This document shows positions 3,073 to 5,901 of a stretch of 5,901 nt of DNA, one piece after another; position 1 is the first letter of the stretch; every line of letters starts with the position of its first letter. The position numbers were made by a program, and so were the translations under genes. The stretch lies in NCBI GenBank assembly GCA_001873285.1, contig MNYV01000092.1, positions 1-5,901 on the forward strand, in the 5' to 3' direction. The DNA is from Nitrospirae bacterium CG2_30_53_67. GTDB lineage: Bacteria; CG2-30-53-67. The notes beneath the pieces were generated by a model, which ran no database searches, was not told where the DNA came from, and saw only the letters and a list, made by a program, of their open reading frames with translations.

Positions 3073-3075
3073 GGA

Positions 3076-3227
3076 TCATCTCCAAAAGAGTGGGTGAAAA
3101 CATAAGGGGTCAAGGGGTCGAGGATTCGAGGGGTCAAGTGAAGTGCTTTTCAAGACTTGAGGGTCCGAGGGTCCAAGGATTCAAGGGGCCGAGTGAAGTG
3201 CTAAAAACATCAGAGGTCAAGGGTGCC
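3076..3227. repeat. Long direct repeat, copy 1 (partner at 5750-5901)
   Basis: From 3076 to 3227 the sequence matches 5750-5901 at constant offset 2674 with three single-base differences (at 3104, 3120 and 3128, judged by eye). Homology begins abruptly at TCATCTCC, 3 bp after the argD stop. Copy 2 is cut by the window edge, so the true repeat may be longer. Inside, two units of period about 55 bp are visible: GGATTC at 3122 and 3177, and GTGAAGTGCT at 3138-3147 and 3193-3202. The words are runs of GGGTCAAGG/GGGTCCGAGG type. No coding potential is evident; an open frame at 3090-3323 crosses it but consists of the repeat. Confidence 0.95.
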
Positions 3228-3375: not shown

Positions 3376-4308
3376 ATGAAAAAAGACCTTTTATCCCTTC
3401 ATCACCTGAGCCGAGAGGATATCGAGCTGATCCTGGAGAGGTCCGCAGGCCTGAAAAAAAAGCACAAGGCCGGCATCCCCTATCAGCCTCTCCTCGGGAA
3501 ATGCCTGGGGATGATCTTTGAAAAGTCCTCCACGAGGACGAGGGTCTCCTTCGAGGTGGGGATCCTTCAACTCGGCGGCCATGCCCTGTTTCTGAGTTCC
3601 AAAGATCTCCAGCTCGGACGCGGGGAGTCCATTGCCGATACCGCCAAGGTCCTTTCCCGCTACATCGACGGGATCGTCATCCGGACCTATAAACAGTCGG
3701 ACGTGGAGGAGCTGGCCAAAGTAGCCGATATCCCCGTGATCAACGGACTGACCGACCTGCTCCATCCCTGCCAGACCCTGGCCGACCTCTTCACGATCAG
3801 GGAACGGATCGGGTCCCTTGAAGGGTTCAAGGCAGCCTATATCGGCGACGGAAACAATATGGCCAACTCCTGGCTGCACGGCGCGGCCAAACTTGGAATC
3901 CACCTCTCCGTGGCCTCGCCTCCGGGGTATGGGCCTGATGCGACGGTCGCCCGTGAGTCCATAGAGGAGGCCCGGCATACGGGGGCCAGGATTCTGATCA
4001 CCCAGGACCCCGTGGAGGCGGTGACCGGGGCCCGGATTATCTCCACCGATGTCTGGACCAGTATGGGACAGGAAAAAGAACATGACCAACGGCTGAAGGC
4101 CTTCAGAAAATACCAGGTCAATGACGCATTAACAAGACATGCAGATCCCGGCTACCTGTTCATGCACTGCCTCCCGGCTCACCGGGGTGAAGAGGTCACA
4201 GGCGAGATCATCGACGGACCGCACTCCGTGGTCCTGGATGAGGCGGAGAACCGGCTCCATACCCAGAAGGCCGTGCTGGAACTTTTAATGGGAGAGATGA
4301 GGAAATGA
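3376..4308 (+). CDS. argF: Ornithine carbamoyltransferase ArgF
   Basis: ArgF transfers the carbamoyl group of carbamoyl phosphate to ornithine, giving citrulline; it acts as a cytosolic trimer. The 310-aa protein has the carbamoyl-phosphate motif STRTR at 52-56, HPCQ at 130-133, the ornithine-closing loop DVWTSMG at about 225-231 and [10 protein letters not shown] at 264-273 with the catalytic Cys265. The ornithine loop distinguishes it from aspartate carbamoyltransferase. The frame is open from a GTG at 3343, but the MKKDLLSL N-terminus at the ATG 3376 is the family start and has GAGAG at 3364-3368, 7 nt away. The stop TGA overlaps the argG ATG (ATGA at 4305-4308), so translation is probably coupled. 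An anabolic role follows from the neighbours: no arcA or arcC is present. Confidence 0.97.
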
Positions 4309-5507
4309 AGAAGAAGATCCGAAAGATCGTGGTCGCCTACTCCGGCGGTCTTGACACGTCCGTGATCGTACGCTGGATCAGGGAGACCTACAAGTGCGAG
4401 GTCATCACCTTTACCGCCGATCTCGGGCAGGGAGAAGAGCTCACGGGGATCGAGGAAAAAGCCAGAGAGACCGGGGCCTCCAAGGCTGTTGTTTCGGATC
4501 TCCGGGAAGAGTTTGTTCGTGACTATGTGTTTCCGGCCCTGCAGGGGAACGCCGTGTACGAGGGAGGTTATCTCCTGGGAACCTCCCTGGCCCGGCCGCT
4601 GATCGCCAAATACCTGATCCGGATCGCGGAACAGGAAGGGGCCGATGCCATTGCGCACGGGGCCACGGGTAAGGGAAACGACCAGGTCCGATTTGAGCTT
4701 TCGGCTTATGCCCTGAACCCTGAGATCCGCGTGGTGGCCCCCTGGCGGGAATGGGACATGAATTCCCGTGAGGCCCTGATCGCCTATGCCAAAATCCGTT
4801 CGATCCCGGTCCCCGTGACCAAGCAAAGGCCCTACAGCAGCGACCGGAATCTCTTTCACATCAGTTTTGAGGGGGGGATCCTGGAGGATCCCTGGTCTCC
4901 GCCGCCCGAGGACATGTTTGTCCTCACGGTCTCACCGGAGAAGGCCCCGGACACTCCCGAAATCGTGGAGATAGACTTTGTTGACGGGATACCCACCGCC
5001 GTAAACGGCAAGGCCCTTTCCCCGGCTGCGCTTCTGTCCGAACTCAACCGTCTCGGCGGCATCCACGGCATCGGACGACTGGACCTGGTGGAGAACCGTT
5101 TCGTGGGGATGAAGTCCCGGGGAGTCTACGAGACGCCGGGCGGAACCATCCTGCATACCGCCCACCGGGCCGTGGAGTCGATCACCATGGACCGGGAGGT
5201 CATGCACTTAAGGGACGCCCTGATCCCCAAGTTTGCCGAGCTGATCTACAATGGGTTTTGGTTCTCCCCGGAAATGGATCTCCTGAGAAAGACCATGCAG
5301 GAGGCGCAGCGAGGCGTCACGGGCACGGCCAGGCTCAAGCTCTACAAGGGGAACTGTACAATACTGGGGAGGAAATCGGACCGGTCTCTCTATCATCCCG
5401 GATACGCGACCTTTGAGGCGGATCAGGTCTATAATCAGCAGGATGCTGAAGGATTCATCAAGCTCAATGCCCTCAGGCTCCGGATCCGCAAGATGAGGGA
5501 GAAGTAG
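4305..5507 (+). CDS. argG: Argininosuccinate synthase ArgG
   Basis: ArgG condenses citrulline and aspartate with ATP to argininosuccinate, AMP and pyrophosphate, in the cytosol as a tetramer. The 400-aa protein shows the PP-loop ATP motif AYSGGLDTS at 11-19, TADLGQGEE at 37-45, [16 protein letters not shown] at 85-100 (citrulline/aspartate region), [14 protein letters not shown] at 118-131 and the [11 protein letters not shown] segment near residue 186. This is the standard short bacterial form (about 400 aa, the GKGNDQ class). The start ATG overlaps the argF stop by 4 bp; GGAGAG at 4291-4296 with 8-nt spacing supports it. The TAG stop at 5505-5507 is followed within about 30 bp by the structured element at 5539-5746. 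No lesion is seen. Confidence 0.98.
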
Positions 5508-5538
5508 ATCCATAAAATTGCGGATTCTTGCTGGTTCC

Positions 5539-5746
5539 CTTAGTGGTCCAGTTCGTAAATATGGTAACGTACCGACTTGTACTCGGTTTACCGGTAGAGG
5601 GTCGCAAGGCGGTTTCATCTCCGCGCGCGACTGAGGCGTACCCCCCTGGTACACCGCAAGGAGCGGAACGGAGAGAAGGCCGCCTTGCGGCCCTCGAATA
5701 CTACCGTATTTACGAATACGGCCGCTTAGCATCTTAATTTTTTTTT
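5539..5746 (+). ncRNA. Candidate structured RNA downstream of argG, family not recognised
   Basis: I found the pairings by eye. Stem P1 aligns 5539-5566 with 5702-5729: 28 opposed positions give 21 Watson-Crick pairs, 4 G-U pairs and 3 mismatches. Stem P2 aligns 5597-5612 with 5680-5695: 16 uninterrupted pairs, one G-U. Between them on the 5' side is a small hairpin (5571-5575 with 5583-5587, 7-nt loop). Beyond P2, P3 pairs 5614-5623 with 5669-5677 with one bulged base, and a tip hairpin pairs 5638-5642 with 5648-5652. All five wobble pairs would be A-C mismatches on the other strand, which favours a + strand transcript. Nine T's follow at 5738-5746. It lacks the signatures I know for tmRNA, RNase P, SRP, 6S, 5S and group II domain V. 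It could be a 3' UTR structure of the arg transcript, an independent small RNA, or a hairpin-type mobile element. An open frame at 5528-5737 is judged spurious. Confidence 0.6.
5702..5746 (+). terminator. Possible transcription end: 3' arm of long stem followed by nine T's
   Basis: The 3' strand of stem P1 ends at 5729; a short spacer CATCTTAA (5730-5737) leads to T9 at 5738-5746. A strong upstream stem with a U-rich tail resembles an intrinsic terminator, but the 8-nt gap between stem and U tract is longer than normal, so efficiency is doubtful. It would end an argF-argG (or argB-to-G) transcript. Confidence 0.4.
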
Positions 5747-5749
5747 GGT

Positions 5750-5901
5750 TCATCTCCAAAAGAGTGGGTGAAAACATCAGGGGTCAAGGGGTCAAGGATT
5801 CCAGGGGTCAAGTGAAGTGCTTTTCAAGACTTGAGGGTCCGAGGGTCCAAGGATTCAAGGGGCCGAGTGAAGTGCTAAAAACATCAGAGGTCAAGGGTGC
5901 C
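5750..5901. repeat. Long direct repeat, copy 2 (truncated by window edge)
   Basis: This copy starts right after the T tract (TCATCTCC at 5750) and runs to the last base, matching 3076-3227 with three substitutions. It carries the same internal 55-bp tandem units (GTGAAGTGCT at 5812-5821 and 5867-5876). It and copy 1 lie in the same orientation and bracket argF, argG and the structured element. Whether the palindromic right arm seen after copy 1 also follows here cannot be seen. Confidence 0.95.

Follow-up and report, generated by a model that had tools for sequence, protein, structure and literature searches.

A dispersed MITE-like hairpin element downstream of argG, with a fold conserved on one strand in several bacterial lineages

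The question raised by this locus is what kind of sequence occupies the roughly 200 nt directly after argG in the window, the whole stretch of DNA that was analysed (5,901 nt; contig MNYV01000092.1 of Nitrospirae bacterium CG2_30_53_67). An earlier note had marked positions 5539–5746 as an undescribed-looking structured RNA and had proposed three roles for it: a regulator in the 3′ UTR of the arg genes, an independent sRNA, or a mobile hairpin element that encodes no protein. The last of these guesses is borne out by dispersed copies, target duplications and empty sites, while nothing points to an independent sRNA. Our preferred reading, to which we assign a probability of about 0.78, is that the segment is a non-autonomous, MITE-like element that is mobilised in trans by a DDE transposase and whose + strand transcript adopts a fold under selection.

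The copy adjoining argG

Upstream of the element, the end of hslU is followed by argB, argD, argF and argG (argininosuccinate synthase; 4305–5507, + strand; NCBIfam NF001770, E 5.9e-188); argG is a neighbour only, and the element copy lies 31 bp 3′ of it on the same strand. The element proper covers 183 bp (5543–5725; + strand, the one with the conserved RNA fold) and belongs to a long subfamily; its ends are fixed by target-site duplications and empty sites, and multiple copies, folding and covariation further support it. It is flanked by TTA target-site duplications at 5540–5542 and 5726–5728, which lie within CTTAG at 5539–5543 and 5725–5729, respectively. On the + strand, the terminal inverted repeats (TIRs) GTGGTCCAGTTCGTAAATATGGT (5543–5565) and ACCGTATTTACGAATACGGCCGC (5703–5725) provide the 5′ and 3′ sides of a closing stem. 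Inside it, alignment of copies delimits a 21-nt insert, ACTTGTACTCGGTTTACCGGT (5575–5595, + strand), which forms a side hairpin and is limited to the long subfamily (roughly ten copies in the element's own genome). The inner long stem and its loop region follow (5596–5695, + strand), with a core (5621–5670, + strand) that consists of a bulged stem, G/A internal loops (GCGACUGAGGCGUAC ... GGUAC..CGCAAGGAGCG) and a tip hairpin. RNA folding thus recovers the closing stem, side hairpin, long inner stem and bulged third stem with its tip that had been described from the letters. In the argG-side copy, CTCCG replaces the usual CAAGG and can pair with a downstream CGGAG, a variant common to several copies of the genome.

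The element as a whole is a long imperfect palindrome. RNA folding of 5530–5760 gave a minimum free energy of −110.4 kcal/mol on the + strand, compared to −71.7 ± 4.8 for shuffled sequences (z −8.1, 0/200), and a weaker −94.6 (z −5.4) on the minus strand. The originally proposed extent holds for the hairpin and not for its 3′ end: the element stops at the TTA duplications, and the T9 run (5738–5746, + strand) is flanking DNA, since other copies stop at the target-site duplication without it, so that the element has no U-tract of its own such as an intrinsic terminator carries. The element contains no ORF, and a cmscan search of the segment against Rfam returned no family at E up to 5, in agreement with the earlier statement that no known RNA class could be assigned. 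Separately, GGGGTCAAG-type short units make up a direct repeat, 97% identical between its copies at 3073–3227 (after argD) and 5747–5901 (after the hairpin), and the contig end falls inside the latter copy.

Copies, ends and insertion sites

A 23-nt core pattern, allowing up to 3 mismatches, detected ~75 copies in the element's own 2.36-Mb genome and 19, 30, 6, 13 and 28 copies in five relatives (reversed control, 0), and BLAST against the own genome scored 40 copies that were complete or nearly so, at 75–90% identity. The TIR pattern, also with up to 3 mismatches, occurs at 171 places in this genome (reversed control, 0). The repeat is therefore short, non-coding and multicopy (~75 copies of 170–190 bp), and it falls into size classes: a standard class of about 170 bp (usually 170–171 bp, CTNAG repeats included); a class of about 190 bp, to which the argG-side copy belongs, distinguished by the 21-nt hairpin; a class of about 265 bp in genomes G002 and G005, which has no Rfam match and carries about 98 nt of additional sequence, a module also found alone elsewhere; and TIR-only remnants of about 60–115 bp. 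The relatives were placed, by a pattern scan covering 84,980 named species, in the "Nitrospirae" CG2-30-53-67 lineage (e.g. Hainich and FCS/ES MAGs). Covariance model R1 gave 0 matches in two genomes of a sister family (G006 and G007), and phage collections, plasmid collections and viral contigs yielded no element match. Two candidates were rejected: a TIR-less form in G005, whose partial matches turned out to be contig ends, and a Nitrospirillum pattern match (L236), a chance hit that fails the covariance model.

Two further sequences were observed in these genomes. One is another structured repeat that is dispersed, ACCCCAAGATACCTTAATGT..GCCGNCG..CGGC..AAGCGGGGC-hairpin-AACC (L203, L204, L209, L210, L225 and others); it occurs alone and beside tRNA genes, with weak, sub-threshold matches to RtT (RF00391) nearby, and it also forms a module inside the 265-bp elements L179–L184 and appears twice in L186. 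A hairpin of 25–30 nt, CCTGCCTGTGC...GCAGACAGG, is inserted in the interior of copies L014, L015, L165, L192 and L194.

The TIRs (GTGG...CCAC) are 23–24 bp long, and in 122 aligned copies the ends read CTTAG...CTTAG or CTAAG...CTAAG. Because the variable middle base of the target repeat agrees between both ends, while the first element base is constantly G (118/118 copies) and the last almost constantly C (116/118), we read the duplication as the 3 bp TNA, with CTNAG as the preferred surrounding sequence. This fixed-length duplication is found in the two congeners G000 and G001, where identical 3-mers flank 62 of 86 copies (shuffled mean 34.6, maximum 48 in 2000 shuffles). Copies in G002 and G004 lack it (0/20), and several of these are nested in a larger long-hairpin repeat with TAGCCCGGATATTGCATGA ends, in the tip of which the element sits. 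That TAGCCCGGATATTGCATGA-ended repeat (L146–L152, L154 and L156–L159, in G002 and G004) itself carries a GCAAGGCG...AACGCCGC motif (CAAGGCG...AACGCCGC), as the element does. At two occupied sites, which from the encoded sequences we take to be nuoI/nuoJ and rplP/rpmC, congener G001 is unoccupied and retains a single copy of the target site in a gap-free alignment (92% and 88% identity, respectively).

With respect to neighbouring genes, 33 of 99 classifiable copies lie in sense and 37 in antisense (tandem gene pairs), 14 between convergent and 15 between divergent genes; gene calls came from a simple codon-score script, so individual neighbour assignments are approximate. Orientation relative to genes is random, with neither an association with arg genes nor a single preferred orientation, which argues against a regulator of the arg genes. 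Many copies directly abut stop codons, and CTNAG can itself contain one.

A fold conserved on one strand, within and between phyla

On a tree of 117 distinct copies, stem changes from Watson–Crick to GU pairs outnumbered those from Watson–Crick to AC (144 vs 61), while unpaired columns of the same tree showed 43 C>T vs 47 G>A changes (A>G 29, T>C 16). As both transitions should be equally frequent if neither strand were favoured, and unpaired columns are unbiased, the GU excess constitutes a strand-specific signal. It is seen on internal branches (GU:AC 26:3) and on terminal ones (118:58). Same-branch double changes numbered 42, compared to 12.5 in pair-shuffled controls (maximum 22, 1000 shuffles) and 7–19 when the pairing was slid; these parsimony counts assume the FastTree topology, and the elements may recombine. 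Furthermore, the + strand is the more stable in 114/117 copies, and the alifold consensus reaches −38.5 on the + strand vs −9.6 on the minus strand, where the consensus fold fails. Checked for artefacts, the GU test fails on the minus-strand fold and on unpaired columns, as expected. The G-U pairs that the earlier note had taken as a sign of RNA are therefore real and significant across copies, related genomes carry homologues with preserved stems and covarying pairs, and its view of a conserved, strand-specific RNA fold gains support from both covariation and strand bias.

The GU:AC ratio is 33:10 in sense copies and 32:18 in antisense copies, a difference that is not significant (p 0.26); the presence of the bias in both suggests, with low power, that selection acts on the element and not on the host gene. 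Judged from these substitution patterns, the fold of a single strand and its non-canonical core loops are kept by selection, whichever way copies face their neighbours. The selected strand is presumed to act as RNA and not as single-stranded DNA.

The scan of 84,980 species also matched two Actinomycetota, Candidatus Solincola sediminis and bin CoA_1_bin.34. Model R1 gave these scan hits 109–121 bits on the + strand and at most 26 on the minus strand, and it found 16 and 9 matches, respectively, in the two genomes. Terminal stem sequences of the Actinomycetota copies differ, and CTAAG...CTAAG and CTTAG...CTTAG ends recur (L261, L266). In a joint cross-phylum alignment of 49 copies, 36/55 pairs have changed on both sides, with 223 both-side-change cells compared to 60.6 in shuffled and 14–45 in slid alignments. 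Common to the phyla is a core comprising a CAAGG...AACG internal loop, G/A loops and a GUAC-type tip. GU:AC cells counted in separate lineages stand at 46:5 (G302/G013) and 43:9 (Actinomycetota), with the + strand more stable in 28/28. A second model, R2, matched 29/386 genomes at E 1e-4 or better (23/380 outside the family), often in multiple copies. Some of the least significant hits (E near 1e-5) could be unrelated hairpins, and L305 has the ends alone in common. The consensus of 21 distant copies, gCaAGGcgcgCGAcngaGgcnTanc...gnTAngncGAnggaGnGnaaCGnnGc, indicates that loop bases persist as outer stems change. Members of a second architectural class are bounded by A-tract/T-tract outer ends and in some cases adjoin tRNA genes; L299, L307, L338 and L341 among them are directly upstream of apparent tRNA genes.

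It is conceivable, if on balance doubtful, that these copies represent ancient, cross-phylum, protein-less mobile elements with a transcript that belongs to their life cycle, an RNA core that is bound by a widespread protein and a fold that is required for spread; they would then form a new class of mobile structured RNA, comparable in bacteria to the SINE-like parasites that depend on RNA.

Mobilisation, rival readings and known systems

In the mechanism that we favour, the element would insert at TNA, preferably within CTNAG and often at stop codons, with duplication of 3 bp, and would be moved in trans by a DDE transposase presumed to be encoded elsewhere. Transcription of the + strand of a copy would let the whole element fold into one bulged hairpin, which, as a guess, may help mobilisation or allow harmless passage through host transcripts; most likely, we infer, the RNA serves the element as a hairpin that is processed or that binds protein. 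Some points count against a MITE with a selected transcript. The copies in G002 and G004 lack target-site duplications, and a strand-specific fold is not something that a plain MITE would be expected to maintain. No transposase with matching ends, and thus no autonomous partner, turned up across six genomes, whether beside lone TIRs (examined in G000, G001 and G005) or at three PF01609 matches of the own genome, in a search that covered part of the known families. The own genome does encode two IS1182-family transposases. One IS1182-family element (L177, G000:C150), inserted in a CCCTCTCCC/GGGAGAGGG palindrome, has TAA on both sides, G..C ends and terminal repeats, GAGACTGTGTCACAAT, that loosely resemble the inverted repeats of the hairpin element in style but share no homology with them; an IS1182-type transposase as its partner is a lead only.

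The strand bias could also arise if the conserved strand were recognised as folded single-stranded DNA by a Y1/HUH enzyme (IS200/IS605 or REP-RAYT-like) or a tyrosine enzyme. Such a hairpin would yield the same strand-specific G-T preference without RNA, and both the random orientation and the GU excess in sense and antisense copies alike are in keeping with it. We nevertheless regard it as unlikely: the 3-bp duplication with its covarying middle base and the gap-free empty sites indicate staggered, DDE-type insertion, and IS200/IS605 elements are not known to make a target duplication, so that the duplication argues against Y1-type transposition. Improbable, too, is an origin as terminator or insulator hairpins adopted by the host and multiplied as repeats, with selection on the fold for its part in ending read-through or in mRNA processing. 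The A-tract/T-tract ends of some distant members resemble bidirectional terminators, some lie by tRNA genes, and many copies of the CG2-30-53-67 lineage sit directly at stop codons, but the element of that lineage has no T-tract inside, its copies point in either direction equally often, and sense and antisense copies do not differ significantly in fold bias.

A regulatory RNA acting in place, whether on the arg genes from their 3′ UTR, as had been suggested, or as a family of host cis-regulators, would account for the location on the strand of argG, 31 bp past the gene, and for a structure conserved as RNA. It is very improbable given that the ~75 copies adjoin unrelated genes in every arrangement (33/37/14/15) and both orientations and that orthologous sites are empty in the congener. 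That the fold is a mere by-product of inverted repeats in palindromic DNA is hardly credible, long imperfect palindrome though the element is, in view of a GU over AC excess that recurs in three separate lineages and is absent at unpaired sites, and of unpaired loop bases conserved between phyla. The scattered copies, the one-strand fold under selection and the recurrence in unrelated phyla together make the segment neither an arg regulator nor an accidental palindrome, and we return to the MITE-like element.

The element works like a MITE and has most of the defining features of one. Like the bacterial MITEs Correia/NEMIS, ERIC/RU-1 and RU-2 (PMC10969869, PMC2229807), it is short and gene-less, with TIRs and a target duplication. 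The likeness extends to the many intergenic copies and to their ability to fold as RNA. Correia and ERIC target TA, whereas the hairpin element targets TNA/CTNAG, and it differs from both in its strand-specific fold and its core common across phyla. With the REP/BIME palindromes mobilised by RAYT (PMC2817692), it shares the many intergenic imperfect palindromes per genome and the strand asymmetry, but it is 5–8 times longer, misfitting the 20–40-bp length of REPs, and is flanked by target duplications. Geobacter genomes hold multicopy predicted RNAs and dispersed intergenic palindromic families (Aklujkar et al. 2009, 2010: PMC2700814, PMC2996986), the main text of which gives no analysis of structure, mobility or cross-phylum occurrence. 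One of those families, with 24 members, is centred on a palindrome, GRCGTAGCGCTGCTACGCC, whose style resembles that of the tip in distant members of the hairpin group, and by these main-text descriptions an overlap of the Geobacter repeats with the wider hairpin group is plausible. The label "undescribed-looking" thus stands for Rfam and the literature searched, where we found no description of a cross-phylum, strand-specific RNA core (a literature search by sequence string returned no relevant paper), and has to be qualified for the wider group. The mobile RNAs of Rfam (HEARO, group II introns and others) likewise place structured RNA on mobile elements; the hairpin element differs in having no Rfam match (the segment at E up to 5, and the 265-bp class) and no ORF.

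MITE-like hairpins are normally regarded as dead remnants of insertion sequences, derived by internal deletion. One MITE-like family, sampled here in several lineages, combines clear strand-specific RNA conservation with a core that spans phyla, even as turnover has altered the outer stems. Should the RNA prove to be required, a large share of the "intergenic repeats" of uncultured bacteria may be a selected class of mobile RNA missing from Rfam, and the cause of MITEs staying structured becomes testable.
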